Shown here in pieces: positions 2,466 to 49,518 of a DNA stretch of 64,000 nt (positions are counted from its first letter, which is position 1; every line of letters starts with the position of its first letter). Made by a program: the position numbers and the translations under genes. The DNA lies in assembly GCF_004137795.1 (NCBI RefSeq), contig NZ_NWTM01000005.1:62001-126000 (forward strand). The letters are read 5' to 3'. Under the pieces are notes generated by a model. That model was not told where the DNA came from. It did not search any database and saw nothing but the letters and a program-made list of their open reading frames with translations. Source of the stretch: Pectobacterium zantedeschiae. Lineage in GTDB: Bacteria; Pseudomonadota; Gammaproteobacteria; Enterobacterales; Enterobacteriaceae.

Positions 2466-2504
2466 GAGACTAATTATAAATCTAATATATTGGATGTTGT
2501 GAAA

Positions 2505-3401
2505 ATGAACATGACTGCTGTTGTTATTTTATACAATACATATCTTCTTGAATCAGAGACATTACAAAGTATTTTAATCAACAAACTTCACAACATTAAT
2601 CTCACGTTAAAAATATGGAATAACGGCCCAAATTATTTAGAAGAAGAAGATATAAATAAATTTTTCTCTTTTTGTTCGAAATCGGGTATAAATGTTGATA
2701 TTTTCCAAGATAAAAGAAATGTATCACTCTCTAAGATATATAATCTTTTTATTAATGAAAAAAACTATGATTACATTACAATATTAGATCAAGATTCAAC
2801 GCTTCCCGAAGATTTTTTTGCAAAAATATTTCATGGAAAAAAAACAGACATTATAATACCGCTGATCTTTTCAAACATAAATGAAATAGTAGCTCAAACG
2901 CATCCATACAGATTATATGATGGCGAAAAAATAGTCACCGAATGTTCTATAAATCAAAAAATAGAAACCGTTATGTCTGGTATTACGTTATCCAGTAATT
3001 TTACAGAGACGATTATAAAAAATTGGAATTCTGTTTTCGAGGAAAGATTGGGATTCTATGGAATAGATAGTGATTTTTTTAAAAGATTAAACGAAATGGA
3101 ATCATTATCAAACATATCTGTTTGCTGCAAAAATAAAATACACCACTCTTTCGCACTCTTAGACCCTAATCAATCAATGAGTGAATTCAGGAAAATGGAA
3201 TTATTCTATTTTAAAATTTTTTCCCGGATAGCCTATCAAAAAAAAGGCCCCATCAGTACCCTCTGGGTCACTCTACGTGATTTCATAAGAATGAAGAATA
3301 ATTTTGTTACAACGTACAATTTAGTTATGTTTGTGCTTAGAAAACGTCATCCCAGATCTATCTTTGATATAAGAAACCACCGTCCTACTCATAGACTATA
3401 A
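2505..3401 (+). CDS. GT2 family glycosyltransferase, second tandem paralogue
   Basis: This 298-aa protein is a paralogue of the preceding gene. Shared landmarks in order are AVVILYN, IWNNGP, RNVSLSKIYNL, TILDQD and HPRS near the C-terminus. The frame is open from a TTG at 2490, but the ATG at 2505 gives the N-terminus matching the paralogue and the GT2 fold. The two copies have diverged widely outside these motifs, so they probably transfer to different positions or use different sugars. It lies 39 bp after the first copy and 29 bp before waaE on the same strand, consistent with one transcript. The donor sugar cannot be deduced. Confidence 0.75.
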   Translation: MNMTAVVILYNTYLLESETLQSILINKLHNINLTLKIWNNGPNYLEEEDINKFFSFCSKSGINVDIFQDKRNVSLSKIYNLFINEKNYDYITILDQDSTLPEDFFAKIFHGKKTDIIIPLIFSNINEIVAQTHPYRLYDGEKIVTECSINQKIETVMSGITLSSNFTETIIKNWNSVFEERLGFYGIDSDFFKRLNEMESLSNISVCCKNKIHHSFALLDPNQSMSEFRKMELFYFKIFSRIAYQKKGPISTLWVTLRDFIRMKNNFVTTYNLVMFVLRKRHPRSIFDIRNHRPTHRL

Positions 3402-3430
3402 CTATAAAATATCTCCATAAGGAATAAAAA

Positions 3431-4201
3431 TTGAGAAAGCGCTTATCTATTGGAATAATCACAAAAAACGAATCCGAACTAATAGAAGAGTGTCTGCAAT
3501 CTGTTAATTGGGCAGATGAAATCATTGTTGTCGATTCTGGAAGTACAGATAATACGGTAGAAATAGCGCACCGATACGGCGCAAAAGTGTATCAACACGA
3601 TGACTGGCAAGGGTATGGCAAACAAAGGCAACGAGCACAGAGCTATGCCAGTGGAGACTATATCTTCTTTATTGATGCCGATGAAAGAGTTACCCCTGAA
3701 CTACGCCAATCAATTGAAGACGTGTTATCCAAATCCAATCTGGATGATAAAATAGTCTACTCTTGCGCACGAAAAAATCTCTTTCTTGGCCGCTTTATGA
3801 AACATAGCGGCTGGTACCCCGATAAAGTGCTACGACTCTACGCGAATCATCGCTATCAGTATAATGATAACAGCGTACATGAGTCATTGGATTATGGTGA
3901 TGCCCCTGTTCAATATTTATCTGGTGATCTTAAACATTTAACCTGTCGTGACTTCTCCGTATTCCAACAAAAACAGTTACGTTATGCTTCTGCATGGGCA
4001 AAAGAACGTTATATAAAAGGTAAGTCTTGCAGCTATATTTCAATATTTATTCACACCATATTCTCATTTTTAAAGACATGGCTATTCAGAGCAGGATTTT
4101 TAGATGGGAAGCAAGGATTATTACTCGCATTTGTCAATGCTCAGTATACCTTTAACAAATACACCGAGTTATGGTCACTAAATAATAATGAAAATCATTA
4201 G
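3431..4201 (+). CDS. waaE: LPS core beta-1,4-glucosyltransferase WaaE (KdtX family)
   Basis: This 256-aa GT2 protein matches WaaE/KdtX, which adds glucose to L-glycero-D-manno-heptose I of the inner core in Serratia, Klebsiella and relatives. Visible landmarks are the N-terminal IGIITKNE strand, [10 protein letters not shown] near residue 34, and FFIDADER near residue 78 carrying the DAD metal-binding motif. The start is TTG at 3431, supported by an AAGGA ribosome site seven bases upstream; no ATG lies in a suitable place. In Enterobacterales waaE often lies close to waaA and coaD, as here. Confidence 0.88.
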
Positions 4202-4237
4202 CTCAAACTTATTTAAATAATAAATTAGGTAAATAAA

Positions 4238-5131
4238 ATGGACGTTAGCTACTCGGCTACTCAGCGCCACCCACTTGATAAACAACACATAAAACTGAGT
4301 TACATCACTCACTTTTATTGTAATCAAAATGATCCACAATCTGTTTTCTCTTTATTAATGGAGTATGAAAAACTTCCTTTAGATATCCGAGAAGCTGTTG
4401 AGTTTGTTATTGTCGATGATGGTTCACCGATTGAATACGATACAGGAAAATATCAGCTTAATATCACTTGGTTACGTATAAAAGAAGATATCCGCTGGAA
4501 TCAAGCAGGTGCACGTAATCTTGGCGTGATCTACGCAAAATCAGACAAAATAATCATCCTCGACCTCGACCAAGAATTGCCGGAAAATACATTCCGTTAC
4601 CTTATAAATCATAAAAACCCCGGTAGAAATTTCTACAAGATTTATCACGAATGCCGAGAAAATGGTTTTATCGATCGCGGCAAGACGTATAATATCGGTG
4701 ATTATTACCATGGACATTCAAATACTTTCTTTATGTCTCGTGCCAGATTTATGCGGTTTTGGGGATATGACGAGGAATTCGCTGGTAATTACGGTTCCGA
4801 AGATTTTCGTTTCGTAAAATTTCACAAGTACCATGGCTCAAAGCAGCGTTATTTGCCAAAAAACATCCGTTGTTTTGAAAGAAATGTAGATAGAAAAAAA
4901 AGCTATCATTCATTGAATCGAGATTTAACTGCGAATACACCTGTCGATCTGCGTAAAAAACAGGAATGCTCACTATTCGGAGCAGAGTACGGACATAGCC
5001 GTATATTTCTTAATTATACTTGGGAAATTAAATACCAGAACAACCTCATTCCACAAACACTTCCTCCAGAAAAAAAATGGTGGCGACCTTTATGGTGGTT
5101 CCGCTATCTTTTTAGCTCACTTTCAAAATAA
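4238..5131 (+). CDS. glycosyltransferase with GT2 / galactosyltransferase-like fold
   Basis: This 297-aa cytoplasmic protein has a GT-A fold. VIVDDGSP near residue 65 and ILDLDQELP near residue 108 give the two acidic motifs. WNQAGARNLGV and a later segment with HSNTFFMSR and WGYDEEF resemble the acceptor side of GT7-like galactosyltransferases. It follows waaE by 36 bp on the same strand and precedes waaA, so an LPS-core step is likely. The specific sugar is unknown. Confidence 0.7.
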   Translation: MDVSYSATQRHPLDKQHIKLSYITHFYCNQNDPQSVFSLLMEYEKLPLDIREAVEFVIVDDGSPIEYDTGKYQLNITWLRIKEDIRWNQAGARNLGVIYAKSDKIIILDLDQELPENTFRYLINHKNPGRNFYKIYHECRENGFIDRGKTYNIGDYYHGHSNTFFMSRARFMRFWGYDEEFAGNYGSEDFRFVKFHKYHGSKQRYLPKNIRCFERNVDRKKSYHSLNRDLTANTPVDLRKKQECSLFGAEYGHSRIFLNYTWEIKYQNNLIPQTLPPEKKWWRPLWWFRYLFSSLSK

Positions 5132-36615: not shown

Positions 36616-37545
36616 TTACGGTTCGTCGATTTTCGCGATCTCTTCCGTCACTTTCCATTTACCGCCCACCAGCTCGCGAGTGGTAGCGACCATCGCCTGT
36701 TTCTCCTCGGAGTAAGCTTCCGTGGTTTCAACAATCAGGACGGGGTTATTGTTAGCGATCTGGTAGGTTGACCATTGGTGCCAGCAGCAGCCGCTTTTGG
36801 TAAACGTGGTGATGGCCTTACTTTTTTCATCGATCTCGAACAGGCCAAGATTGGAACTGGCTAATTCGGTCAGCGGCGCATTCTGGGTGAACTGCTGCTT
36901 TTCCACATCGAACAGGTACACATCGTAAGACGGTCCGCCGTAAGCCCCGTTATTCCCGTTACGCAGCATGATATCCGCATGATGATCGAAGTTAGCGTCA
37001 TCAATCACCAACCCGCTGTTGTTCTCGCCATAAACCTCGATCAGATTTGCCGTCACTTCGCCTTTCTTGTTCAGCTCGATGAACATATTTTCCATTGCGA
37101 TACGCTGGAACAGCTCGCCACGTCCTTTCTTAAAAATATCCAGCGTACCTGTTCCTTCACAGGTTGAATAAGAGGAATCGAGATTGCACGTCGCCACGCT
37201 GAGCACGAAGTCCCACTGGTCTGATGCCTGGGTAATCAAGGAGATATTTTCACTACCGGACAGATCCTGAATACGGGAAACCATCTCATTCCCCAGACAA
37301 ACGTCATCCTTACAGCGATCGCGTTCGGCCAGCCAGGCGCGCTGCTCCTGACGCGCCTGTACTTTGTCTGCCTTTTTCACGTAACCCTGATAGGCCTTGT
37401 TCAATACGGCATCAAGCTGCTGTAAGCGGCTGCTGGCGCAAATCATTTTCTCGCTGTCGGTACTGGCCTTGCTGCAATCCATCGCCCAGACGGACGAGGT
37501 GAAAAAGAACAGCAGGGATGAAACAGCTAGGGATAAATAACGCAT
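36616..37545 (-). CDS. secreted protein with N-terminal LprI-like (DUF1311) domain
   Basis: This 309-aa protein has a Sec signal peptide (residues 1-21, ending VWA). A lysozyme-inhibitor LprI-like domain follows, with the paired cysteines and helices of MDCSKASTDSEKMICASS, LDAVLNKAY and AWLAERDRC. The C-terminal part contains VIDDANFDHHADIMLRNGNN, like a single calcium-binding FG-GAP-type repeat seen in XAC2610-type proteins. It is probably periplasmic. Its function is unknown; inhibition of lysozyme cannot be assumed. Confidence 0.75.
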   Translation of the reverse strand: MRYLSLAVSSLLFFFTSSVWAMDCSKASTDSEKMICASSRLQQLDAVLNKAYQGYVKKADKVQARQEQRAWLAERDRCKDDVCLGNEMVSRIQDLSGSENISLITQASDQWDFVLSVATCNLDSSYSTCEGTGTLDIFKKGRGELFQRIAMENMFIELNKKGEVTANLIEVYGENNSGLVIDDANFDHHADIMLRNGNNGAYGGPSYDVYLFDVEKQQFTQNAPLTELASSNLGLFEIDEKSKAITTFTKSGCCWHQWSTYQIANNNPVLIVETTEAYSEEKQAMVATTRELVGGKWKVTEEIAKIDEP

Positions 37546-37611
37546 GAAGTATCGCTCCTTGAATACAGATAAAAATCTAACATATTGATAAAAATGGATA
37601 TCAGGCTATTT

Positions 37612-38706
37612 TTAGCTGCCCTTTCCCATCTTTTTAAGAAAGCGCTGCTGCTCAACCAAAATCGCTTTTAGCGTAATGCACTGATACTCAATGCCATGGC
37701 GCGGGGCAACATCCGCAATAATTTTGGATAGCGCGGGATAGTGCCGGTGATTCCAGTTGGGGAAAATATGGTGGGTCAGGTGCATATTAAGCTGCCCCAG
37801 CCAGTAGCCAAGCCATGCAGGCTGGGTAGTCCAATCTACCGTGGTGGAAAAGACATGCTGATAGCGACCATGCCTGAATAGGCCATCTTCCGGCGCCTGA
37901 TAGAACGTCCCTTTCGCCCAGTGCGACCCCAGAATCAGGACGACAAAAATCAGCGATGACAACATCTGGCTCAGCAGATAAACCAGCAACAGCGAGCTGA
38001 AGCTGATAGGGGATGGGGACAAAAACCAGTAAGGGATCGCCAGTGCTAACAAAGCATGTAGCACTTTTGATAACAGGAACACACCCCAGCCCTTAACGCC
38101 CTGAAGCGTCATATTGCGCGTCACCTGCGTTTTCCCCGCGCGATCGAGCCAGTCAAAAAACCAGATGATGCAGGGAAATGTCAGCGACGCCACCATCGGC
38201 CAGTAGTAGCGCTGAGCGCGCATAAAGAAGCGAAACCGATGGTAGGGTGATTGGCGCAAGACGCCGTTTTCTTCGATATCCAGATCGTAGTGCTGCACAT
38301 TCACGTGCGCATGATGAAAAATCACATGCCGCACTCGCCAGCAGTCAGAATCCATGCCGAGCGGAATACTCACCACAATATTGAGCAGACGATTCGCCCA
38401 CGGCCGCCGGAAAAAGACGTTATGGGAGGCATCATGCACCACGTTCACCGCCAGAAACATGGCGGTAAAAATAAAGGCAAAGTAGCAGCCAGCAAAACCC
38501 AACAGCGTCGTTTGCTGGAGGCTGAAACCATAAAACGTCAGACACAGCAGCACCAGAAACAGCATCTTGCCGATAAACCCCGCATTGGCAAAACGGTGAT
38601 CGCCCGTCTCTGCCAGATACTCATTTGCCGCCTTCATCAGCGCCCGATGCAATGCCAGATCGCGACCTTGTTCATAGCGTAGAGGTTTCAACGGTGCAAG
38701 CATCAC
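37612..38706 (-). CDS. membrane fatty acid desaturase (last gene of lipid operon)
   Basis: This 364-aa membrane di-iron enzyme has the three histidine boxes of acyl-lipid desaturases: HDASH near residue 92, a second box in HHAHVNVQHYD near residue 128, and HLTHH near residue 313. Hydrophobic segments flank them. It closely resembles the gene just upstream, with which it overlaps by ATGA. Desaturation would act on an acyl chain bound to lipid or a related long-chain product. It is the eighth and last gene of the operon starting at 45731. The second box sequence differs from that of its paralogue, so positional specificity may differ. Confidence 0.82.
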   Translation of the reverse strand: MMLAPLKPLRYEQGRDLALHRALMKAANEYLAETGDHRFANAGFIGKMLFLVLLCLTFYGFSLQQTTLLGFAGCYFAFIFTAMFLAVNVVHDASHNVFFRRPWANRLLNIVVSIPLGMDSDCWRVRHVIFHHAHVNVQHYDLDIEENGVLRQSPYHRFRFFMRAQRYYWPMVASLTFPCIIWFFDWLDRAGKTQVTRNMTLQGVKGWGVFLLSKVLHALLALAIPYWFLSPSPISFSSLLLVYLLSQMLSSLIFVVLILGSHWAKGTFYQAPEDGLFRHGRYQHVFSTTVDWTTQPAWLGYWLGQLNMHLTHHIFPNWNHRHYPALSKIIADVAPRHGIEYQCITLKAILVEQQRFLKKMGKGS

Positions 38707-39842
38707 TCTTCCTCTGATTTATGTTCTGCGGTATGTGAAACAGTACGCCGATCGTGACCTGCGCCCATCGATTTTAAAAACCGACTCTGGCTAGCCAGTA
38801 GCTCACGATAGGTAATGCAGCGGTAGTTCATACCATGTTCGGCGGCAACACGCCGTAAAATAGCAGCGAGCGCGGGGTAATGGCGATGATGCCATCCAGG
38901 GAAAAGATGATGCGTCAGATGTAAATTCAGCCCTCCCGTCCAGTGCTCAAGCCAGCGCGGCGTCGGCAGCCAGTCACACGCAGTCGCAAAGTTGTGCTGA
39001 TACCAGCCCTGAGGCATGCTCTCTGCATCCGCAACGGCATAAAATTCAGCCTCAGCCCAGTGCGTCCCCAGCAGTAAAAATACCACCAATAGGGATGCCA
39101 ACATTTGCCCAAGCAAATAGCTTAGCAGCACGATACCGGGACTAATGCCGTGCGCCGTTCCCACCATGATGGGAATAACCAGCACCAGTAATATATGGGC
39201 GATTTTACTGCCGATAAAAATCAACCAACCGCTATAGCCAGACTGCACTGAACGAGCATTCACTGGCGTTTTACCCAAGCGATCGGCCCAATCAAAGATC
39301 CAAGCGATATAGGGAAGCGAGAAGGCGGCCACCAGCGGCCAGTAAAGATGCTGATAACGCATATAGGAATGGTGGCGCTGAAAAGGCGTTTGACGGAAAA
39401 TCCCATTCTCTTCCGTATCCAGATCGTAATGTTCCACGTTCGGATAAAGATGGTGGAAGTCCACATGACGCCAGCGCCAGTAGTCAGGATCGATGCCTAA
39501 TGGCAGCGTCACGATGCGCCCGACCAGGCGGTTCAATGTTCGATTGCGGAAAAAAGTATTATGGGACGCATCATGATTAACGATGATATTCAATAACATC
39601 GACAGCATGATGAAAGAAAAATAGCTCAGGAAGAACGCCCATGCCGCCTGCTGCACTAGGCAAAGCACATAGCAGGCGATGCAGCATAAAAAGAGTAATC
39701 CGGCCTTCACGAACTGGCCGCTATCGGCAAAGCGATGGTCGTGGTTAGCACGAAGATAGGCCGACGTTTCTCGCTGTAGTGCACGATGAAAAGCGTGTTC
39801 ACCCTTCGCCGGATACCGCTTCTCAGGTAGCACATTAGCCAT
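38703..39842 (-). CDS. membrane fatty acid desaturase (paralogue)
   Basis: This protein of about 379 aa has histidine boxes HDASH, a second box in HHLYPNVEHYDLD, and HLTHH within HLTHHLFPGWHHRHYP. It is a tandem paralogue of the downstream desaturase, with shared ends (THWA, WLPTP/WTTQP, GMNYRCIT/GIEYQCIT). TTG 39857, ATG 39848 and ATG 39842 are possible starts; the last has the best-spaced AAGGA site and overlaps the previous gene by eight bases (ATGGCTAA). Two successive desaturases suggest a di-unsaturated product or two substrates. Confidence 0.82.
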   Translation of the reverse strand: MANVLPEKRYPAKGEHAFHRALQRETSAYLRANHDHRFADSGQFVKAGLLFLCCIACYVLCLVQQAAWAFFLSYFSFIMLSMLLNIIVNHDASHNTFFRNRTLNRLVGRIVTLPLGIDPDYWRWRHVDFHHLYPNVEHYDLDTEENGIFRQTPFQRHHSYMRYQHLYWPLVAAFSLPYIAWIFDWADRLGKTPVNARSVQSGYSGWLIFIGSKIAHILLVLVIPIMVGTAHGISPGIVLLSYLLGQMLASLLVVFLLLGTHWAEAEFYAVADAESMPQGWYQHNFATACDWLPTPRWLEHWTGGLNLHLTHHLFPGWHHRHYPALAAILRRVAAEHGMNYRCITYRELLASQSRFLKSMGAGHDRRTVSHTAEHKSEEE

Positions 39843-40959
39843 TTTCATGTCCTTCAACGATCGGACGCTGACCCCAGCCGACAGCCATCGCCAGCCCGTG
39901 TAGTGCCAACATCAGCATAGCTATTTTCCAGTAAAGCGCTTCCCAACCCAGATAGACAAAAAACACGGTAGGGAATAGCAGTACCACCAGTAGCCAAACG
40001 TAGATGCCCCACCGTCGCCCCTCGGAAATGCCGCCCAGCGCGACCGCACCGGCCACCAGCAACAGAAAGAGCGCCACCTGCGACAGGTTGGCGGAATCAT
40101 AACCGTAGCCATACAGGTAGACGTAGCCCACCACCAGCGCAAATAGCAGCATAGCCCCAACAAGCAACGCCAACGGCGTACAGTGAAACGTCGCCTGACG
40201 TGTACGGCGTACCGACAGTTTCAGATACGACAGAAAAGGTAGATTACTGGCCAAAAACGGATTCTTCGATGGCGTTTCTTTGCCTGCACCGTAACGGAAA
40301 GGCGTGTCAGGCAGTTGTGGACAAAAACTGCCGAACAGCTTGTCCCAAAAAATGAAGGTGCCGCCGAAGTTCTTATCCGCGTAAGCGCGATCGTTTACAT
40401 GGTGTACGCGGTGATGTGCGGGTGTCACCAGCACCTTTTCCAGCCAGCCCAGCTTGGGCGTCATCGCATTATGGTTAAAGAGTTGGACGCTGTAATGCAG
40501 GATGGAAACGGTGACGAACACGTACAGCGGAACGCCGAGCAGCGCCAGAATCAGGAAGAACGGAATTGAGGTCAGCGAGGAATACCAGGAGTTACGCACG
40601 CCCAGCGACAGATTGAAATGCTCACCCTGATGATGAACCACATGCACGGCCCACAGCACACCAAAAGTATGGTGCAAGCGGTGTAGCCAATAAAAACCGA
40701 AATCCCAGGCGAGTATCGCGAACAGCCACATCAGTATCGGTGGCCAGGCTTCCACCCAGCCAAAACTGAAATTCGCCGCGACATAGCCATAGCAAAAAAT
40801 TTCCACGCTGCGAAAGAGCCACAGCATGATATGCCCTGAATTGAGGTTGAACACGACATCATGCCAGTTCACCTTCTCACGCTGCATCCACTGTAAAGCC
40901 AGCGCTTCACCAATCACCACAACCAGCATGAAGACTATCGGTAATGCCAAATCGATCAT
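39835..40959 (-). CDS. sterol desaturase / fatty acid hydroxylase superfamily protein
   Basis: This 374-aa membrane protein has the eight-histidine di-iron pattern: WLHRLHH near residue 90, HVVHH near residue 108, and HHRVHH near residue 180. Family members hydroxylate or desaturate lipid chains and sterols. After the catalytic domain (about residues 1-250) an extra C-terminal hydrophobic region of about 120 residues with several membrane segments is present. It starts 4 bp after the PAP2 gene. Since bacteria of this group make no sterols, an acyl-chain or hydrocarbon substrate is inferred. Confidence 0.82.
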   Translation of the reverse strand: MIDLALPIVFMLVVVIGEALALQWMQREKVNWHDVVFNLNSGHIMLWLFRSVEIFCYGYVAANFSFGWVEAWPPILMWLFAILAWDFGFYWLHRLHHTFGVLWAVHVVHHQGEHFNLSLGVRNSWYSSLTSIPFFLILALLGVPLYVFVTVSILHYSVQLFNHNAMTPKLGWLEKVLVTPAHHRVHHVNDRAYADKNFGGTFIFWDKLFGSFCPQLPDTPFRYGAGKETPSKNPFLASNLPFLSYLKLSVRRTRQATFHCTPLALLVGAMLLFALVVGYVYLYGYGYDSANLSQVALFLLLVAGAVALGGISEGRRWGIYVWLLVVLLFPTVFFVYLGWEALYWKIAMLMLALHGLAMAVGWGQRPIVEGHENG

Positions 40960-40963
40960 GATT

Positions 40964-41620
40964 TCATTCCTGATGGCGCTTATCGTTAGGCAACGGAACC
41001 CGTGGGGAAATGGCCGTTACCGCCTCCCGACTACGCAAAAAGACCCATCCGACCATTCCTGCGAGCATCGCACCAGTCACCAGATCGATGAACAGGTGTC
41101 GACGCAGTTGCAGGATGGAAAAAGCAATCGCCGCTCCCCATAGAAGATACAGGCCGGTCTTCACCTTCTGCTGGCTATCGCTCATCGCCCACACCGCCAG
41201 AACCGTCAGCGCAATATGCAGCGACGGCAGGCAGTTTTGCGGCGAATCGATACGTTGCAAAAGCTGTAACAGACGGGCGGAGAGATCGTCTCCGACGACC
41301 TGTGGGTAAGTCATCGTAGTCGGAAAAGTCAGATACACTATGCCTGCAATCAACGCTGTAAGCTGCGTTGCCCGACGTAATCCAGCCAAACGTGTCATCG
41401 GACAGGATAAGTAAGACAGCGGAATGATGATGAAAAAGGAGAGATACAGCCAGATAGCCGAGGGGCTAAAGGGAATCCATTCGTCGACAATCGAGGGCGG
41501 TAACACCGTTCCCTGCCCCTGAAACTGCGCGCTCAGTTGATACACCACGCCAACCGATCCCCAGCCAAAGAGCAGCGCTTTCAGCCGTAATAGCATCGTT
41601 CCTTGAGGAAATCGCATCAT
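40964..41620 (-). CDS. PAP2 family membrane phosphatase / phosphotransferase
   Basis: This 218-aa membrane protein has two of the PAP2 signature motifs: CLPSLHIAL at 130-138 (PSxH, H135) and RRHLFIDLVTG at 173-183 (H175 nucleophile, D179). The shorter variant and the PSLH form resemble inositol-phosphorylceramide-synthase-type PAP2 enzymes. It could dephosphorylate a lipid phosphate or move a head group. It overlaps the ligase gene by ATGA. Its presence suggests that the product of the operon is, or starts from, a phospholipid-type molecule. Confidence 0.8.
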   Translation of the reverse strand: MMRFPQGTMLLRLKALLFGWGSVGVVYQLSAQFQGQGTVLPPSIVDEWIPFSPSAIWLYLSFFIIIPLSYLSCPMTRLAGLRRATQLTALIAGIVYLTFPTTMTYPQVVGDDLSARLLQLLQRIDSPQNCLPSLHIALTVLAVWAMSDSQQKVKTGLYLLWGAAIAFSILQLRRHLFIDLVTGAMLAGMVGWVFLRSREAVTAISPRVPLPNDKRHQE

Positions 41621-42903
41621 GCGTCCTCCTTCTGGCGGGTAATACGTCTGCGCTTTTGCGTGAATTCTGGTGCGATCTCACCGGCGATTAACTGCCACCG
41701 TAGCCGCGATGTATCAATTCCCTGCAACGTAAACTGCTGCGCCAGACTGTCTCGGCAGGCTTCCAGTTCCGGCAGGCTGCACGCGGCGGATAAATGCAGC
41801 GTCGCGTCTCCCTGCTGAACCAACCGATAGTCGGCATGTAGCGGCAACGCATTGGCAATAACTCGACTACAGAGATCCGCAAAGACGGTCTGCGGTTCCC
41901 CGCAGTTGTCCGGCAATCGCAGGCTGTCATCGCTGCGCCCTTCAATGCGGGCTATCGCCATCGTCACGCGACCACACGCGCAGGGCGCTTTTTGCTTCAC
42001 CAACACATCATCCAGCCGATAGCGCACAATCGGCTGTGTGCTGCGGGTGAAATCGGTAATGACGGGTGTAAAGCGTTCGTCATCGATCCATTGTGGCTCG
42101 ATGTGAATAAATTCTTCGTTAAGGTGTAGCGTGCCATGCTCACAGGTCGATGCCAGAAAGCCTTCCGTCGCCTGATACACTTCCCCTACCTGCCCGAACA
42201 CCTGCTGCAACAGTTGCTTATCCTGCGGTTCCAACACCTCGGCCACGGAAATGACCTTTTTGACCGACAGGCGCAGCTTACCGCTCTGTACCGCCAACGC
42301 CAGCTCGCGTAGCACCTGTGCGGGGGCGACGATAATCGACGGTGACCATGCCTCCAGCCGCGAAAAATGTTCAGCAAACGGCGCGAACAAATCGTAAAAC
42401 GACAGACTGAGCCAACGGTTATCGACGCTGTGATAGAGGTTGTTATCCGCTCGCAGAAACAGCGCCACCCGTTCACCAGCGCGTAAACCATCCGGCAGCA
42501 TTTTCGCCAGCATGCCTCCGGCCCAAACCTGCTGTTCGTGCGGACTAACGACAAACAGGCCACGCTGACCAGAGGTACCGGACGACAGCCCGACGCTGAA
42601 CCCGTTTACATTCGGCGTAAAGTCGCGGTCGTCCTCACTGCGGCGTGCGCATGCGAGAAGTTCGTCCCGCTTGAGCCCGGCGGTATTCATCCGATCAAAC
42701 TCGGCCATCATTACCGCTTTATCCATCATCGGCCAGGATGAGATCGGGAGATGGCAGTAAGGTCGAAAATAGGGGCTACGCGCCATCACTCGTCGCGCAA
42801 AACGAGAAAGCTGACGCTGCTGATGGCGTTCAAGCGCCTGACGGGTGGTAAAACGCAGGCGTCTGGCGCGTAAATAGTGCCAGATCGTCATCAGCGGGAT
42901 CAT
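41617..42903 (-). CDS. PaaK-like / F390 synthetase-related adenylate-forming enzyme
   Basis: This 428-aa protein resembles phenylacetate-CoA ligase and coenzyme F390 synthetase-related proteins. Visible are GLSSGTSGQRG near residue 108 (phosphate-binding loop), EVYQATEGF near residue 188, and RYRLDDVL followed by CACGR, the ATP and adenylate part. Such enzymes activate a carboxylate as acyl-AMP and pass it to CoA or another acceptor. It overlaps the metallo-hydrolase gene by ATGA. Within the operon it is the natural candidate for activating a fatty or beta-hydroxy acid, in the position OleC has in olefin synthesis; this is inference. Confidence 0.78.
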   Translation of the reverse strand: MIPLMTIWHYLRARRLRFTTRQALERHQQRQLSRFARRVMARSPYFRPYCHLPISSWPMMDKAVMMAEFDRMNTAGLKRDELLACARRSEDDRDFTPNVNGFSVGLSSGTSGQRGLFVVSPHEQQVWAGGMLAKMLPDGLRAGERVALFLRADNNLYHSVDNRWLSLSFYDLFAPFAEHFSRLEAWSPSIIVAPAQVLRELALAVQSGKLRLSVKKVISVAEVLEPQDKQLLQQVFGQVGEVYQATEGFLASTCEHGTLHLNEEFIHIEPQWIDDERFTPVITDFTRSTQPIVRYRLDDVLVKQKAPCACGRVTMAIARIEGRSDDSLRLPDNCGEPQTVFADLCSRVIANALPLHADYRLVQQGDATLHLSAACSLPELEACRDSLAQQFTLQGIDTSRLRWQLIAGEIAPEFTQKRRRITRQKEDA

Positions 42904-43706
42904 AGGTCACCCTCGTGACACAGCCGAATCTCGACCTGCCCATTCAAATGTAACTGGTGCAGTTGGTCTAACGTTTGGTAATAGGCCTTTGGGTCGTCCA
43001 TCACCAAATTCGCCAACCGCGACGGCCCGCGTCCTTCACGATAGCTGTGCGGCAACCAGGCAGCATCACTTGCCAGCAACACCCAGCCGTTTTCGGTCAG
43101 CACAAACGCACCGAGGTGTCCGGCTGCATGGCCGGGCAGCGCCACCAGTACGATTTCCTTATCGCTACCGGGCAGCGCATAGCCTTGCGTAAAGGGTGCC
43201 AGCTCGGCAGGCAGATCGGTAAGCGGGAAATTTTCGACAAACTGGAGCGCCTGCTCAAAATTCTCAGGGATCAGCGCGGGCACGAATGCTCGCTTCAAGG
43301 CTGCGAAACCGCGTAGATTCCGCGTCTGCTGCCAGCCGAGCGCCGAACAGATAAACGGCACGGCGGGGAAATCCCGCAGCCCCGCGATATGGTCACCGTG
43401 AAAATGGGAAATAATCAGGCCGTCGATGTCGGCAGGTTGGATACCCTGCGCGTGTAGCTGATGAATCAGCGCCTCTTTTGTCTCAAAATGCACCGGCGTC
43501 ATTCTGCGGTACAGTTGAAACAATCCTGAACGCGTGGCGTCGGTGAAATGCTGCGCATAACCGGTGTCCCACAGCCAGCGCTTGCCCTGACTTTCCAGCA
43601 TCCAGACCCGCGCCGGAAAACGGCACACCTTCCACCCCGCACCGCGCAACGCCATGCAGCCCGGATGCAGGCAGTACCCTACTTCAAACGTCGAAATATT
43701 AGCCAT
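42900..43706 (-). CDS. MBL-fold metallo-hydrolase
   Basis: This protein of about 268 aa has the metallo-beta-lactamase signature HFHGDH (within ISHFHGDHIAGL), then PGHAAGH and SDAAWL for the remaining metal ligands, and a C-terminal LCHEGDL. The pattern is close to lactonases and related hydrolases of the MBL fold. The frame opens at 43730; the ATG at 43706 overlaps the end of the reductase gene by eight bases (ATGGCTAA) and matches the organisation of another junction in this operon. A role in hydrolysing a lactone or thioester intermediate is possible. Confidence 0.8.
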   Translation of the reverse strand: MANISTFEVGYCLHPGCMALRGAGWKVCRFPARVWMLESQGKRWLWDTGYAQHFTDATRSGLFQLYRRMTPVHFETKEALIHQLHAQGIQPADIDGLIISHFHGDHIAGLRDFPAVPFICSALGWQQTRNLRGFAALKRAFVPALIPENFEQALQFVENFPLTDLPAELAPFTQGYALPGSDKEIVLVALPGHAAGHLGAFVLTENGWVLLASDAAWLPHSYREGRGPSRLANLVMDDPKAYYQTLDQLHQLHLNGQVEIRLCHEGDL

Positions 43707-44727
43707 GTCCGTTAGAACTCCGCTGTGCAAGATGGATATTGAACCAATTACCGGTTAATTCGATGCCTTGCTGGAGGGAAAAACGCGGCTGATAGCCCAG
43801 CTCTTGCTGCGCTTTTTCCGCGCTGAGCGTCATATCAAAATTCACCGCTCCCGCACTGTAGCGCGTCAGCAGTGGCTCTTTCCGGCTAAACCACGAGAGC
43901 AACTCCATTCCACCGGCCACCGCATGCAGCAGAAGGTACGGCACCGCTCTGACGCGATAATGCATCCCCAACTGCCCGACCAGCAGTTGCTCAAGCATAT
44001 CTGCAAGGCGTGCGGGCTCATGATTGGTAATGTTATACGCCGAGCCAGAAACTAACCCCGTTCGCTGGCTGGCAAGTGCCATTGCTTCCACTACGTTGCC
44101 GACAAACGTCAAATCCAGCAGCGCCGCACCGCCGCGCGGGAGCCGTAGCACGCCACCGCCTACCGCGATCTGCTCCAGAATACGCGGTAGAATCACGCGG
44201 TCATGCGGGCCAAACAGGCCACGAGGTCGTAGAATCACGTAGGTAGTTTGCGGATAGCGCGGCGTCAGCGCATGAAGGCGCTCTTCCGCCAGAAATTTGG
44301 TCTGCGCATAGTGATTGGCAAAGCGCGCCGCGCGGTAGCTTTCGTCAATATTCAGGTGGTGCTGGTAGTCAAAGTAAATCGCGGGCGTGGAGATGTGAAC
44401 AAAACGTGGGATACCCAACTGTCCAGCGGCCTCAGCCAAGCGCGCCGTCACCTCGGTATTATTCTGATAGAAGTCATCATATTGACCCCACGGCGATGAT
44501 TTCGCCGCACAGTGCCAAACCACATCGCAGCCCGCCATCAGCGTTCGATACTGCTCTACCGACGTTTCGACCAAATCAATGCAGGCAAACTGCGCACCCA
44601 GCAGGTCAAGCTGCTGCCCCACCGTGCGATCGCGCCCGCAGGCCAGCACCTGATGCCCAGCCTGAAGCAGCCATTCCACCGCGTTACGCCCCAACCCACT
44701 GGTTGCGCCCGTGACGAAGACCTTCAT
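43699..44727 (-). CDS. NAD(P)-dependent extended SDR, OleD-like reductase
   Basis: This 342-aa protein has a Rossmann N-terminus, VTGATSGLGRNAVEWL, and the SDR active-site YAQTK with the tyrosine and lysine. The segment HCAAKSSPWGQYDDFYQ followed by FVHISTPAIYF resembles OleD and 3-beta-hydroxysteroid dehydrogenase-type proteins more than sugar epimerases. OleD reduces 2-alkyl-3-oxoalkanoates formed by OleA in long-chain olefin synthesis. The gene overlaps the KAS III gene by ATGA, and the OleA-like/OleD-like adjacency supports the assignment. Substrate remains inference. Confidence 0.8.
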   Translation of the reverse strand: MKVFVTGATSGLGRNAVEWLLQAGHQVLACGRDRTVGQQLDLLGAQFACIDLVETSVEQYRTLMAGCDVVWHCAAKSSPWGQYDDFYQNNTEVTARLAEAAGQLGIPRFVHISTPAIYFDYQHHLNIDESYRAARFANHYAQTKFLAEERLHALTPRYPQTTYVILRPRGLFGPHDRVILPRILEQIAVGGGVLRLPRGGAALLDLTFVGNVVEAMALASQRTGLVSGSAYNITNHEPARLADMLEQLLVGQLGMHYRVRAVPYLLLHAVAGGMELLSWFSRKEPLLTRYSAGAVNFDMTLSAEKAQQELGYQPRFSLQQGIELTGNWFNIHLAQRSSNGHG

Positions 44728-45731
44728 GGAATCAGTACCATTCCGCCCAGCGTCAACCCGGCGGCCGTACCGACCAGCATCGCAGGTTCGCCTTCAGGCA
44801 GGCGTTGCGTCACGATGGCATGATGCAGCGCTGTCGGAATCGAGGCCGCCACCTGATTACCGTGATAGCGGTAAATATCAATCAATCTTTCTGTCGGGAT
44901 CGCCAACCGCTTACGCATATGCTCCAGCGACAGGTGGCTGGCCTGATGCGGAACCACTGCCGCCATCTGATCTAGCGTAAAACCGCTGGCATCCAGCAGC
45001 CGTTGCAAATAGCCCTCAATCAAGGCAGAAGCCTGCCTGAATAACCGTTTCCCCTGCATATGGAACAGAAAATCATGCAGTTCCATACCCGCTCGCGGGT
45101 TGCGCAAGGTGCCGCCTGCCCGGATCTGGCACAGTTCATTGCCCTTCGGATACGTTTCCAGCAGACATGCTGCAATCCCGCTGCTGCCATCACCGCGTTC
45201 GACAATCGCGCACGCGGCACCATCACCAAAAATCAACGACGACTCTTCATCATCCCAGTCAATACCGCGCGACGCGAGTTCGGTAGAGACAATCGCAATG
45301 CGCCGATAGGCTCCGGTATTTAACAACCCCGCCGCCACCTGAAGCGCGGAAATAAAGCTGACGCAGCTGCTATTAATATCAAAACAGGCCGTCCCTTTCG
45401 GCAGGGACGATGCTTTTAATACATGGCTGGCGCTATAAGGCAGCGCCTGAATCGGGATCGCGGAAGCAAACAGCAGCAGATCGATTGACGCAGGTGAAAT
45501 AACGCCTCGAGCCAGCGCGTCATTTAACGCCTCCACACCGAGTTCGGCCTGACTCGCATGATTATCGGCATGGTGGCGATAGATAATTCCTGAACGGCTT
45601 TCGACATAACCGGCGGGTTTATTGAGCCGCACATCTAATTCAGCCGAGGTCACCCGCTGCGCAGGAAGCGCGCTGCCGGTAGAAATAATCTTTAGTGGAA
45701 CCAATCCCTTAGTGAATGCGTGACTTTGCAT
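44724..45731 (-). CDS. 3-oxoacyl-ACP synthase III (KAS III / OleA-like)
   Basis: This protein of about 335 aa has a thiolase fold. The Cys-His-Asn triad is visible in NSSCVSF (C123), VPHQASH (H262) and YHGNQVAAS (N292). Members condense an acyl thioester with malonyl-ACP or with a second acyl-CoA (OleA-type head-to-head condensation). It is the first gene of the eight-gene operon. Starts at TTG 45743, TTG 45737 and ATG 45731 are possible; the ATG is taken here, though an AAGGA site is better spaced for TTG 45737. A separate housekeeping FabH is expected elsewhere in the genome, so this is a pathway-specific copy. Confidence 0.85.
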   Translation of the reverse strand: MQSHAFTKGLVPLKIISTGSALPAQRVTSAELDVRLNKPAGYVESRSGIIYRHHADNHASQAELGVEALNDALARGVISPASIDLLLFASAIPIQALPYSASHVLKASSLPKGTACFDINSSCVSFISALQVAAGLLNTGAYRRIAIVSTELASRGIDWDDEESSLIFGDGAACAIVERGDGSSGIAACLLETYPKGNELCQIRAGGTLRNPRAGMELHDFLFHMQGKRLFRQASALIEGYLQRLLDASGFTLDQMAAVVPHQASHLSLEHMRKRLAIPTERLIDIYRYHGNQVAASIPTALHHAIVTQRLPEGEPAMLVGTAAGLTLGGMVLIP

Positions 45732-45774
45732 CTTCAATATCAATCCTTTCCCAGATTCATTAGCATTTTACTCG

Positions 45775-45796
45775 CGTACGATAAGGCTATCGTGCG
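45775..45796. promoter_or_regulatory. inverted repeat, candidate operator of the lipid operon
   Basis: CGTACGATA-AGGC-TATCGTGCG is an inverted repeat with eight of nine arm positions matching. It lies about 45-65 bp upstream of the KAS III start, close to a TAAAAT -10 candidate, and about 145 bp upstream of the divergent glpM. Confidence 0.45.
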
Positions 45797-45940
45797 TAGT
45801 ATTTATTCATTCTGCTGCTAAGAATAACGAAATCACCGCGAATTGAAATCTTAAGCTGTGCGATCGTACTGTTCCATCCCGATACTTTTTCGCTATTCTC
45901 TGTTCATTCACGATGCTTAATTAAGCCAGAAGTTATACTT

Positions 45941-46282
45941 ATGTCATTGTTTATCAAATCTGTTATCGGTGCGCTGATCGTATTGCTCATCAGCGTATTG
46001 GCGAAAAGCCGAAACTATTATATTGCCGGACTGGTGCCGCTATTCCCCACGTTTGCCCTCATCGCACATTACATTGTTGGCACCGAGCGCGGGCTGGACG
46101 CACTACGTGCCACTATCTTATTTGGCATCTGGTCCGTTATTCCCTATCTGGTTTATCTCATCTCACTTTATTACTTTACCGCATGGATGAAATTGCCACA
46201 GGCGCTGCTCGCAGCGGTCGTGTGCTGGAGTGTGTCGGCAGCATTGCTGGTCAAAATCTGGACGTGGTATCAAGGGAATTAG
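45941..46282 (+). CDS. glpM: GlpM family membrane protein
   Basis: This 113-aa protein of four hydrophobic segments is nearly collinear with E. coli YeaY-type/GlpM (SLFIKSVIGALIVLLISVLA, then KSRNYYIAGLVPLFPTFALI). GlpM was linked to alginate production in Pseudomonas, but its function in enterobacteria is not established. It is divergent from the lipid operon, and the pectinesterase gene starts 30 bp after its end, so these two may be co-transcribed. Confidence 0.9.
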   Translation: MSLFIKSVIGALIVLLISVLAKSRNYYIAGLVPLFPTFALIAHYIVGTERGLDALRATILFGIWSVIPYLVYLISLYYFTAWMKLPQALLAAVVCWSVSAALLVKIWTWYQGN

Positions 46283-46311
46283 TGTCTGACTTCTTACCTT
46301 AGGATTACGCA

Positions 46312-47514
46312 ATGACAAAAACGACATACCCCGGTACGGTTTCTCGCCCTGTGCTCTCTGCGCAGGAAGCGGATCGCTTTACGCTCCCATACTATTTCAC
46401 GCAGCGTGGGCACGATGACCATCCTGATGTTGACGTCTGGCAGCCCGTGCCGATTGAGGTCGATCTGGTGACACCCTGGATTGTTGGGCCAGAAGTCGGG
46501 GTGGATGGCGCTACGCACATCCATATCCAACAGGCGGTGAACGCCGCGCTGCGGGCGCAGCAAGATCGAACGCGTATTGATATTAAAGTACTGCCAGGCA
46601 CCTATACTGGCACGGTCTACATCCCCGCCGATGCACCACCGCTCACGCTATTTGGGGCGGGAGAACAACCGAATGACGTGGTGATTCAACTGGCACTGGA
46701 TTCGATGTTTTCACCAGCAACTTACCGGGAAACAGTGAACCCACGCGGTGAATATCAGCCCGGCGATCCTACCTGGTACATGTACGATCTCTGTGCATCA
46801 AAGCAGAACGCGACGATTGATACTCTTTGTTCCGCCGTGGTCTGGTCGCAGAGCGACAATTTCCAGATGAAGAACCTGACAGTGGTCAATACATTGCTCG
46901 ATTCGGTAGATAGCCGTGCACATCAGGCCGTGGCGCTACGCACCGACGGCGACAAAATGCAGCTTGAAAGGGTTCGCCTAATCGGGCGTCAGGATACGTT
47001 TTTCGTCAATACCAGCAACCTCCAGAATGAGTACGTCACAGACCGCTACAGCCGCGCCTACATTAAAGACAGCTACATCGAGGGTGATGTTGATTACGTT
47101 TTCGGACGGGCGACTGCGGTATTCGATCGCGTCCACTTTCATACCATTTCCAGCCGCGGGGCAAAAGATATACATGTCTTCGCACCTGACAGCATGCCAT
47201 GGGTGCCGTATGGCTTCTTGGCAGTGGGATGTCGCTTTACGGGTGACAAAGGCTTCAGCGGGGAAAAAAAGGCCAAGCTGGGGCGAGCCTGGGATCAGGG
47301 AGCAAGGCAGACGGGATATCAGCCAGGACAGACGGCAAACGGTCAGTTAGTGATCCGCGACAGCACGATTGACGTCAGTTACGACAGAGAACAACCATGG
47401 GGAGCCGCCGCAACCACCGCACGACCCTTTGCAGGTAACACGGATTCAGACCGCAATCTGGACGATATATATTTCAATCGGCTGTGGGAATACAACAATA
47501 TTGATGAGGAATAA
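46312..47514 (+). CDS. pectinesterase family protein, PemB/YbhC-like without signal peptide
   Basis: This 400-aa right-handed beta-helix protein of carbohydrate esterase family 8 shows QAVALRTDGD, GRQDTFF, GDVDYVFGRATAVF with catalytic and stabilising acids, and LGRAWD. The best-known relatives are Dickeya PemB, an outer-membrane lipoprotein pectin methylesterase, and E. coli YbhC. Here the protein starts MTKTTYPGTVSRPV with no signal peptide and no lipobox. Only 29 bp separate it from glpM and an in-frame stop lies upstream, so no missed signal can be added. It may act in the cytoplasm on imported methylated oligogalacturonides; this is inference. Confidence 0.87.
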   Translation: MTKTTYPGTVSRPVLSAQEADRFTLPYYFTQRGHDDHPDVDVWQPVPIEVDLVTPWIVGPEVGVDGATHIHIQQAVNAALRAQQDRTRIDIKVLPGTYTGTVYIPADAPPLTLFGAGEQPNDVVIQLALDSMFSPATYRETVNPRGEYQPGDPTWYMYDLCASKQNATIDTLCSAVVWSQSDNFQMKNLTVVNTLLDSVDSRAHQAVALRTDGDKMQLERVRLIGRQDTFFVNTSNLQNEYVTDRYSRAYIKDSYIEGDVDYVFGRATAVFDRVHFHTISSRGAKDIHVFAPDSMPWVPYGFLAVGCRFTGDKGFSGEKKAKLGRAWDQGARQTGYQPGQTANGQLVIRDSTIDVSYDREQPWGAAATTARPFAGNTDSDRNLDDIYFNRLWEYNNIDEE

Positions 47515-47903
47515 TGTGCGGTGGCGTAGGACATAATATGCAGACAGATGCTACGAATGAAAGTACCACACAGATATAACTAAAGTCATTGAAACCTGAT
47601 AGGCCTGTAAAACAATACAGGCCATAGAAAAGAAAATTATTTTTTTATTATATTACTGATAAATCTCGCTTAATTAGCATTCCCTGATGTCAGCCAATCA
47701 TCACGCTTATCCTGAGCGATGTTTATTTCTTTTGCTTTACGCCCTTAACAAAGTCGTAAGATTGTATGTTTTTTCACCCCAAATAAAAGCTATACTAAAG
47801 TATAGTTAAGGCTATCTGTATAGGTTACTATGGATGTACGTATAGGGATGGGTATATACTTTTTCCATTACAGGATGTTGAATTTTCTGGCAGAGGTTAT
47901 CAG
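47515..47903 (+). other. intergenic region upstream of expR
   Basis: These 389 bp hold no gene I can support. The composition is AT-rich. The only structured signal is the palindrome at 47790-47805. A promoter for expR must lie in the last 100 bp, but several T/A-rich hexamers compete and none is clearly best. Confidence 0.6.
47790..47805. promoter_or_regulatory. lux-box-like palindrome upstream of expR
   Basis: CTATACT-AA-AGTATAG is an inverted repeat with perfect 7-bp arms, 98 bp before expR. It shares 12 of 16 positions with the core of the EsaR box (CTGTACTATAGTGCAG) of the related regulator from Pantoea. It is a candidate ExpR binding site for autoregulation. Confidence 0.5.
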
Positions 47904-48641
47904 ATGTCGCAATTATTCTACAACAATGAAACTATAAGCAGGATAATAAAAAGTCAATTCGATATAGCATTAAGCCACTACGGCGACATCAAATATGCCT
48001 ATATGGTGTTAAATAAAAAGAAGCCAACAGAAATTTTGATCATTTCCAATCACCATGATGAGTGGCGAGAGATATACCGAGCAAACAATTATCAACACAT
48101 TGATCCTGTGGTGATTACGGCCCTTAATAAAATCACCCCTTTCCCTTGGGACGAAGATTTACTTGTCAGTACACAACTGAAGATGTCAAAGATATTTAAC
48201 TTATCCAGAGAGCATAACATCACCAACGGTTACACTTTTGTTCTTCATGACCATAGTAACAATCTGGTGATGCTATCAATCATGATTGATGAATCCAATG
48301 TGAATAACATCGATGATGTCATCGAGAGTAATAAAGATAAGTTACAAATGATGTTGATGAATATTCATGCAGAAACCATCTCTCTTTACAGAGAGATGAT
48401 TAGAAACAAAGAAGATGAAAGATCAAATGATAAAGATATTTTTTCTCAACGGGAAAATGAAATTCTTTACTGGGCCAGTATGGGTAAAACCTATCAAGAG
48501 ATAGCACTAATATTAGATATTAAAACAGGCACTGTTAAATTTCACATCGGCAATGTTGTGAAAAAACTCGGCGTATTAAATGCCAAACATGCGATCAGAC
48601 TTGGCATCGAGCTACAACTCATCCGACCGGTTCAGTCATAG
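47904..48641 (+). CDS. expR: LuxR-family quorum-sensing regulator ExpR
   Basis: This 245-aa acyl-homoserine-lactone receptor belongs to the ExpR/EsaR group, whose members bind DNA without ligand and are released by it. The N-terminal autoinducer domain contains the conserved DEWREIYRANNYQHIDPVV. The C-terminal GerE-type helix-turn-helix reads FSQRENEILYWASMGKTYQE through TVKFHIGNVVKKLGV. It is convergent with expI and the two coding regions overlap by 23 bp. In Pectobacterium this pair sets production of plant cell wall degrading enzymes and virulence according to cell density. Confidence 0.94.
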   Translation: MSQLFYNNETISRIIKSQFDIALSHYGDIKYAYMVLNKKKPTEILIISNHHDEWREIYRANNYQHIDPVVITALNKITPFPWDEDLLVSTQLKMSKIFNLSREHNITNGYTFVLHDHSNNLVMLSIMIDESNVNNIDDVIESNKDKLQMMLMNIHAETISLYREMIRNKEDERSNDKDIFSQRENEILYWASMGKTYQEIALILDIKTGTVKFHIGNVVKKLGVLNAKHAIRLGIELQLIRPVQS

Positions 48642-49272
48642 GCACGAAAGACAGTGGCCACTCTCGTAACTTACTTTCAACAAATTCTTTGTTGTGATTT
48701 ATACGACGAACTAGCACATCCTGGCTTTCATTATCGACAGGTAAGAAAAGTAGATAAACCCTTTCCTGCTTTTCTGACATACCCTGTTCAACAATCGAAA
48801 TTTTCCAACCAGAACGCTTCAATATTGTGAGCATAGGGTGACTGACAATCGTGTAAACACCATCATACCCTTTACTCCTTGAATAATTCACCGTTGCCAA
48901 GAAGAACATCGTACTTACGGGATAAGAATTTCCTAGAATAGTTTTTGACCGCGCTTTATCTACGAAAAATCGGCTCGACTCAATATATTTTCCCTCTGGA
49001 ATGTCTATTTTTTCAAAATAGGGGAAAAATGTTCCAGTAATCATATTAGGATATTTCGTTTCAATTAGCCGAGAACTGCAAATAACCTGGTCATCCTCTA
49101 CGCCGAAAAGATAAGTCGCATTATCATCATCATACTGATCGAACTCCATCCCATTAATACATTTTACTGCCCAATTCAGCCTGTCCTTGAATGTTTCTTT
49201 TCTAAGTGTAAACAATTCTTCCGATTTTTTTTCCGACAGTAGTGTGTAGCTTACATCGAATATCTCTAACAT
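48619..49272 (-). CDS. expI: acyl-homoserine-lactone synthase ExpI (CarI)
   Basis: This 217-aa LuxI-family enzyme makes N-acyl homoserine lactone from S-adenosylmethionine and acyl-ACP. Conserved residues are visible in FTLRKETFKDRLNW, GMEFDQYDDD, SSRLIE and YIESSRFFVDKA. A strong GGAGG ribosome site precedes the ATG. It is convergent with and overlaps expR. Whether it makes 3-oxo-C6 or 3-oxo-C8 chains cannot be settled by eye. The upstream 265 bp up to argG are AT-rich, and no clear lux box is seen there. Confidence 0.95.
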   Translation of the reverse strand: MLEIFDVSYTLLSEKKSEELFTLRKETFKDRLNWAVKCINGMEFDQYDDDNATYLFGVEDDQVICSSRLIETKYPNMITGTFFPYFEKIDIPEGKYIESSRFFVDKARSKTILGNSYPVSTMFFLATVNYSRSKGYDGVYTIVSHPMLTILKRSGWKISIVEQGMSEKQERVYLLFLPVDNESQDVLVRRINHNKEFVESKLREWPLSFVPMTEPVG

Positions 49273-49483
49273 TTTTCCTCCATTAAAAATTTGCAGCAGA
49301 CATCAAAAAACAGATAGACCATCCAATAGATTCTTTTGCCTTTTAACAAAAATCCAGGCTTATTGTTATTGTATTCTGTCGCTTTCCACGACGGTTGTAC
49401 AGATGCAACCCGCATTGTCAGCAAGAGTTCACATACACAAAACATTGATTAAAAATCAAACACAAGCCTATGATAAAAAATAA

Positions 49484-49518
49484 AAAAATCCGGAAGCGTA
49501 AAACGATTCCGGATTTTT
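49484..49518 (-). terminator. terminator of argG
   Basis: A 12-bp stem AAAAATCCGGAA / TTCCGGATTTTT with an 11-base loop lies 20 bp after the argG stop codon. It ends in T-rich sequence on the minus strand and insulates expI from argG. Confidence 0.85.

Follow-up and report, generated by a model that had tools for sequence, protein, structure and literature searches.

The OleABCD pathway to head-to-head olefins draws on a clustered synthase, short-chain dehydrogenase/reductase (SDR), adenylating enzyme and hydrolase; OleA has a catalytic glutamate reaching into the partner monomer, and OleB is an alpha/beta-hydrolase of the haloalkane-dehalogenase-like kind. Two other ketosynthases, MxnB and CorB of myxopyronin and corallopyronin biosynthesis, serve large polyketide synthase (PKS) systems that end in an alpha-pyrone. 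MxnB has two tunnels and joins a pair of long acyl chains by condensation (PMC5724707). PpyS and PyrS are stand-alone ketosynthases that join two acyl chains (PMC4578411), and PpyS needs Glu105. Here we describe an operon of eight genes, A to H, in a 64,000-nucleotide stretch of Pectobacterium zantedeschiae DNA (contig NZ_NWTM01000005.1, positions 62,001 to 126,000 of the forward strand; hereafter the window). We put the chances at about even that this operon makes a polar two-chain lipid, destined for the membrane or for secretion.

The operon comprises eight complete open frames, all on the minus strand, running from 45743 to 37612 in the order A to H:

44724..45743, minus strand: gene A, a synthase resembling beta-ketoacyl-acyl carrier protein (ACP) synthase III (KAS III), of an MxnB/CorB-like clade; ATG start probably at 45731 (Pfam and NCBIfam, tree, motifs; best PDB matches MxnB 4v2p and CorB 4yuc).
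43699..44727, minus strand: gene B, an extended SDR whose top family is OleD (2-alkyl-3-oxoalkanoate reductase), under the equivalog cut-off (NCBIfam; PDB).
42900..43730, minus strand: gene C, a metallo-beta-lactamase (MBL)-fold hydrolase with the fold of acyl-homoserine lactone (AHL) lactonases and HxHxDH intact; ATG start probably at 43706 (Pfam, NCBIfam, structure model).
41617..42903, minus strand: gene D, a PaaK-like adenylating enzyme of TIGR02304, 'F390 synthetase-related' (NCBIfam, 590 bits, cut-off 252; motifs; invariant Lys417).
40964..41620, minus strand: gene E, a PAP2-superfamily membrane protein without phosphatase motifs, similar to AUR1 and sphingomyelin synthase-related protein (SMSr); putative head-group transferase (Pfam, structure model, motifs).
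39835..40959, minus strand: gene F, a di-iron membrane enzyme of the fatty acid hydroxylase superfamily, sterol-desaturase-like (PF04116, 98 bits; invariant histidines).
38703..39857, minus strand: gene G, membrane fatty acid desaturase 1 (PF00487, 115 bits; histidine boxes).
37612..38706, minus strand: gene H, membrane fatty acid desaturase 2 (PF00487, 96 bits; histidine boxes).

A preliminary description of the locus had listed eight same-strand genes with these domains, and the frames, Pfam and NCBIfam bore this out, with D recognised through TIGR02304 only, as the Pfam scan gave it no family. With the longest frames, the junctions from A to H measure -4, -32, -4, -4, +4, -23 and -4 bp; given internal ATGs at 43706 (the MBL gene) and 39842 (desaturase 1), the -32 and -23 junctions both become -8, and the junctions are then, as first described, overlaps of 4–8 bp or gaps of 4 bp. 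The ratio of non-synonymous to synonymous substitution rates (dN/dS) against two congeners is 0.03–0.15 in all eight genes, indicating purifying selection on each of them, and every motif checked in A, C, D, F, G and H is intact; the phosphatase patterns of E are the exception. The two desaturases are about 48% identical to each other, as measured on the copies in loci L018 and L019. A scan for promoters and terminators was uninformative, with 3 promoter-like sites where 6.8 were expected and 16 terminator-like sites where 11.2 were expected, and an Rfam search of positions 37000–49500 returned nothing informative.

Each enzyme family is known, and we found no described pathway or product for the combined set. 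In line with the preliminary description, no paper on this gene set was found in the PMC literature searched, which omits most subscription papers. Malleicyprol biosynthesis (PMC12304814) fuses chains with a domain of a different kind.

The ketosynthase was placed in a tree of 50 sequences: 33 from loci with the four-gene core A to D, MxnB, CorB, 13 other KAS III proteins and two OleA proteins. Of the 13, eight were compared with the FabH cut-off and every one exceeds it, the genome's own FabH included; the OleA sequences match PRK09258 and come from regions with OleD over its cut-off and OleC. A DarB-type ketosynthase (L155; 32 bits with the core ketosynthase profile) and PpyS were left out. 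The 33 core sequences form one clade with MxnB and CorB (support 99/94), separate from the 13 KAS III and two OleA sequences; two core sequences (L114 and L119) are long-branched, and the tree does not fix where MxnB and CorB branch inside the clade. The PpyS paper sets MxnB and CorB within the FabH clade, with valine instead of glutamate (PMC4578411), so that tree and ours differ in detail. The Cys-His-Asn triad of A is kept, and the residue before the active cysteine is serine or threonine in 33/33 core sequences and in MxnB and CorB, compared with 0/15 of the other sequences. At the column of the OleA catalytic glutamate, the core sequences have leucine (24), isoleucine (8) or methionine (1), unlike PpyS with its required Glu105, and MxnB and CorB have valine. 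By clade and active-site motif, A is a member of the MxnB/CorB-type group, although the operon differs from their systems in that SDR, MBL, adenylating and lipid genes follow the ketosynthase; none of the eight was seen to encode a PKS or ACP.

A housekeeping FabH was rejected as the identity of A, given its place outside the FabH clade and its score of 195 bits against the FabH model TIGR00747 (cut-off 292; the genome's own FabH scores 478). The best NCBIfam model of A is PRK07204, a beta-ketoacyl-ACP synthase III family (327 bits, cut-off 402), on which a literature search yielded nothing useful. The grouping with housekeeping FabH that would have refuted the preliminary description was therefore not found, whereas its parallel with OleA was not supported, the glutamate being missing from every core sequence and the clade being that of MxnB and CorB.

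The same description had likened B to OleD and D to OleC. OleD is indeed the best family for B (162 bits), though far under its equivalog cut-off of 580, and the closest solved structure is sterol-4-alpha-carboxylate 3-dehydrogenase. OleD and this dehydrogenase act on beta-keto or beta-hydroxy acids, which fits a reduction of the product of A. The adenylating enzyme D is a full member of TIGR02304 (590.3 bits, cut-off 251.9), a named family that carries no stated function in the database output and under whose name no paper appeared in the PMC literature searched. Its motifs SSGTSG, YxxTEG and GRxDD are intact, the C-terminal Lys417 is invariant, Cys254, Cys308 and Cys310 are nearly so, and its nearest named relatives are from Pectobacterium (88–93% identity). 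Neither the D profile nor the C profile gave a match at E 1e-3 in three OleD regions, though these hold verified OleC-type olefin beta-lactone synthetases; one of the regions has a dehalogenase-like neighbour. The OleC parallel was thus not supported, nor is C a relative of OleB by profile; within the Ole analogy, which is only partly right, the SDR has OleD as its best family, at a score below the cut-off.

For C, a structure model built from 24 alignment rows (predicted local distance difference test, pLDDT, 93) found quorum-quenching lactonases or pyridoxolactonase in all of its top 19 fold matches (Z 25.2–27.8), the best with a root-mean-square deviation (rmsd) of 2.3 over 240 aligned residues. 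Other lactonases and phosphotriesterases followed at Z 17.5–24; GloB reached 16.2 and beta-lactamases about 15. The metal ligands (HxHxDH) are invariant in the aligned rows, and C lies under every named lactonase equivalog cut-off in NCBIfam, the best score being 51.5 bits against 325. The MBL fold of C is a further difference from OleABCD, as are the head-group and di-iron enzymes that the operon adds.

The structure model of E was built from 31 alignment rows (pLDDT 94). Its closest fold is human SMSr with ceramide (Z 14.4, rmsd 4.4, 192 residues), followed by AUR1 twice (Z 13.9 each), with overlaps of 190–203 of 218 residues at 11–16% identity; LpxE (Z 12.6, 149 residues) and phosphatases (at most 11.6) come after. 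Foldseek put the same four on top with modest scores (best E 3.1e-4, template modelling score up to 0.59). Helical models can reach Z of about 13–14 by chance, and for E the matches outside the phosphatase/haloperoxidase fold reach at most 6.0. PAP2 phosphatases carry the patterns KX6RP and RX5HX3D. Neither of these (the C1 and C3 patterns) occurs in any of the 31 rows; of the genome's three other PAP2 proteins, two have both, and the third showed no PSGH and was not scored. Instead, E and AUR1 have in common the arrangement PSLH...H-x-F-[IV]-DL, and the NCBIfam model for phosphoinositol dihydroceramide synthase matches 10/31 rows weakly (best E 9.5e-5). An ordinary phosphatase was rejected on the missing patterns, which makes the original label 'PAP2 phosphatase' doubtful; the modelled fold favours, by a small margin, a head-group transferase of the AUR1/sphingomyelin synthase type.

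Ordinary ceramide is unlikely to be the acceptor of such a transferase. The serine palmitoyltransferase family has two strong members in the genome, which pass the cut-offs for Kbl and BioF but none of the three for serine palmitoyltransferase, and three further matches of 22–27 bits. Because the two strong members are Kbl and BioF, an ordinary sphingolipid pathway was rejected. The remaining tail enzymes, F, G and H, keep their histidine boxes; the profile of F found no solved structure at E 0.01.

Relatives were sought with three D proteins, which returned at least 541, and the best-scoring 80 loci were kept; as these repeat some genera many times, the counts are not species frequencies. A gene was counted if its profile match exceeded 100 bits and lay on the strand of D, no more than 7 kb away. 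The 80 loci come from 32 named genera, mainly Enterobacterales, Pseudomonas and Betaproteobacteria, and 77 have A-B-C-D in this order on one strand, including L025 and L069, where A or C spans two frames. The exceptions are L064 and L079, where no A was found, and L089, whose contig starts at D. The preliminary description had proposed a search for a conserved neighbourhood, and the core forms one. E is present in 61/80 loci, F in 56/80 and a G/H-type desaturase in 55/80 (two copies in 22). A different tail (type II) has a second OleD-like SDR in 11/80 loci, always with an adjoining gene for a glycosyltransferase of GT21 (146 bits), the ceramide glucosyltransferase family, with HpnI as its best NCBIfam model; a GT1-type glycosyltransferase accompanies it in 10 of these loci and a small protein of no Pfam family in 9. 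Both tails occur together in four loci (L040, L047, L048 and L099). The small conserved protein lies between the GT21 and GT1-type genes (L099, 17480–18064) in 9/80 loci and in genome G423, and its L099 copy had no Pfam, NCBIfam or PHROGs match.

Beyond this set, the core reaches Bacillota, Alphaproteobacteria and Fusobacterium. Cores of Paenibacillus and Pontibacillus have an ATP-grasp gene between A and B, those of Ketogulonicigenium and Paracoccus adjoin sulfotransferase and TetR genes, that of Paraburkholderia is followed by ATP-grasp and GNAT genes, and the Fusobacterium order is GT21, small protein, B, C, D, A; the core was also found in Pseudomonas sp. FeN3W and Shinella. The distant core operons L112, L116, L117 and L014 incorporate ATP-grasp genes, and L112 and L116 GNAT genes as well, hinting at an amide-linked product in those loci. 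In evenly drawn genomes, TIGR02304 was found in 4/369 of the class (E 1e-30) and 11/398 of the phylum (E 1e-25), the two samples overlapping. Two Pseudomonas ketosynthases cluster with that of Serratia marcescens (95/91) amid Enterobacterales sequences, which indicates transfer between lineages. A lone D-type gene without annotated A–C lies amid hypothetical genes on pMPPla107, a Pseudomonas amygdali megaplasmid (L118).

From the gene content, its conservation, the clade of A, the fold class of C, and the motif class and nearest folds of E, we infer the following steps, their order and their product. A, as an MxnB/CorB-like enzyme, would join two thioester-bound acyl chains through a carbon-carbon bond, and B would reduce the new beta-ketone to a hydroxyl. 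The lactonase-fold C might hydrolyse a thioester or lactone intermediate, and D could adenylate a carboxylate so that it can be transferred, reduced or closed into a ring. E would place a phospho head group onto a lipid hydroxyl, as relatives of AUR1 and sphingomyelin synthase do, and F, G and H would hydroxylate and desaturate the chains within the membrane; in the sister loci, the GT21/GT1-type module would add a sugar, instead of E or beside it. A more specific version, which we regard as doubtful, is that the product resembles ceramide but is made without serine palmitoyltransferase, in Enterobacterales (including roughly an eighth of complete E. coli genomes), Pseudomonas, Burkholderiales and others: two chains joined through a carbon-carbon bond by the MxnB-like synthase would give, on reduction, a 2-alkyl-3-hydroxy lipid, perhaps a 2-alkyl-1,3-diol, to be decorated by the AUR1/sphingomyelin synthase-like phosphotransferase, GT21, hydroxylase and desaturases.

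Several observations count against a polar two-chain lipid, or against the role it gives to individual enzymes. MxnB takes beta-ketoacyl chains and releases alpha-pyrones, so A could make a pyrone; by analogy with FabH, A could also use malonyl-ACP. MxnB and CorB are the only two-chain synthases of this kind in the ketosynthase tree, and the HQxS motif of the core is common to OleA too, the 13 other KAS III proteins having HQxN. For E, the sequence profile ranked LpxE first among solved structures (E 0.013) with AUR1 next (0.045 and 0.054), the Z lead of SMSr and AUR1 over LpxE is under 2, models for undecaprenyl-diphosphate phosphatase and PgpB match 6/31 and 4/31 rows, and the window's own E protein had no NCBIfam match. 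F, G and H showed no specific tie to sphingolipid enzymes in NCBIfam or structure searches. A–D alone were recognised in 11/80 loci, two of them on contigs ending less than 400 bases from D, which suggests that E–H are dispensable for some product. In G423 (L149), A and C stand with the GT21 module and an SDR resembling B, but D was not recognised. The ATP-grasp tails elsewhere suggest that the acid made by the core may go to other fates.

In a variant of the Ole pathway, a 2-alkyl-3-keto acid formed by A would be reduced by B and cyclised to a beta-lactone by D, and C would open or decarboxylate the lactone, giving a polyunsaturated long-chain olefin, beta-lactone or ketone. In favour of this variant, B is nearest OleD, A falls in a clade with two-chain synthases, and the operon has both an adenylating enzyme and a hydrolase of lactonase fold. 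We nevertheless think it unlikely: the OleA glutamate is replaced throughout the core, the D and C profiles do not find their supposed counterparts in the OleD regions, and a hydrocarbon needs no head-group enzymes, whereas most of the 80 loci have E or GT21 genes along with the core. Head-to-head olefin formation was rejected as the leading reading on the clade of A, the missing glutamate and the failure of the D profile to find OleC. The preliminary description had guessed at a long-chain ketone, alcohol, beta-lactone or hydrocarbon, possibly carried on a phosphorylated head group; the head group fits, and a hydrocarbon is less likely because the tail genes belong to head-group families (the AUR1/SMSr-like PAP2 protein here, GT21 and GT1-type enzymes in sister loci). 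The polar two-chain lipid is preferred because two tails of lipid-hydroxyl enzymes, one AUR1/sphingomyelin synthase-like and one with GT21, share a single four-gene core, and a core that couples two chains and reduces the resulting ketone would provide a lipid of that sort.

The lactonase fold of C and the grouping of A with MxnB and CorB would also suit a small pyrone- or lactone-type signal or antibiotic (compare MxnB, CorB and PpyS) controlled by C as lactone hydrolase. On that account the proximity of luxI and luxR, 2–3.5 kb from the operon (window 47904–49272) and likewise in the two operon-bearing congeners opened, would be no accident. We give this little probability, since membrane-lipid enzymes follow the core in most of the 80 loci, the flanks in E. 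coli CFT073 and Serratia show nar genes instead of luxI/luxR, and D would have no clear role. It is improbable, too, that the operon merely modifies fatty acids, with A a specialised FabH that starts unusual chains, the other enzymes hydroxylating and desaturating acyl chains for ordinary phospholipids, and E a phosphatase. The intact triad, PRK07204 as best model, the two desaturases and hydroxylase, and LpxE as best sequence match of E agree with this, but A lies outside the FabH clade, E lacks the phosphatase patterns, and B, C and D would be superfluous.

A search of 25 Pectobacterium genomes with gene A, including the genome of the window (5.06 Mb), found it full-length in 23, at 93–100% identity. 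In both loci that were opened (L018 and L019), all eight genes are in place, flanked by glpM/luxR/luxI at one end and by the aldehyde dehydrogenase gene at the other; among five further Pectobacterium loci (L020–L024), four have two desaturases and L021 has one. The two remaining genomes hold remnants: G013 keeps fragments of A, C, F and one desaturase, packed into about 0.4 kb and adjoining the LprI-like gene, and G017 keeps an A fragment only, adjoining glpM. The operon was therefore probably once present and lost there, perhaps in two events. The pectinesterase beside the lost operon of G017 is also reduced to short pieces (L015, 10568–10935), so the whole stretch seems to be eroding.

In the window, the upstream neighbours of the operon are glpM, a pectinesterase and the luxR/luxI pair, and downstream lie an LprI-like gene and a gene that reads from its sequence as an aldehyde dehydrogenase. 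The luxR/luxI pair exists in two allele types at the same position, one about 93–95% identical to that of the window (L015 and L019), the other with luxR about 61% and luxI 73–74% identical (L016 and L018). Farther off, positions 492–5131 of the window resemble a surface-polysaccharide locus: G+C is low, near 0.32 in the first 4 kb, and the stretch encodes a protein similar to O-fucosyltransferases and two glycosyltransferases of family 2, besides two open reading frames without Pfam match.

E. coli CFT073 carries a seven-gene form located between narI and the rtT RNA/tRNA-Tyr genes; it consists of A-B-C-D-E-F plus a single desaturase. Searched together with its short flanks against 5,426 complete E. 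coli genomes, this operon matched 672, of which 671 hold at least 80% of it and 670 are at 95% identity or higher, copies being judged at the level of nucleotide matches. Carriers include CFT073, Nissle 1917, 83972, ATCC 25922 and an O25b:H4-ST131 strain, and are presumably mostly of phylogroup B2; to our knowledge, the operon is absent from K-12. One 385 kb E. coli 'plasmid' (NZ_CP141085.1) holds the operon (L111) together with its neighbours on the chromosome, narGHJI, galU, hns and tdk, and has the appearance of either a plasmid-borne chromosomal segment or a misassembly.

This gene set is common to many gut, plant and soil bacteria and, as a single operon, is easily testable in laboratory strains. 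If it makes a polar two-chain lipid, a lipid class would have been overlooked in much-studied bacteria, among them Nissle 1917, the reference strain ATCC 25922 and the urinary strain CFT073, and the seven-gene form of E. coli would have been missed by a K-12-centred view of lipids. In that case TIGR02304, the MxnB/CorB-related ketosynthase clade and a group of the PAP2 superfamily now labelled phosphatase would gain a function too.

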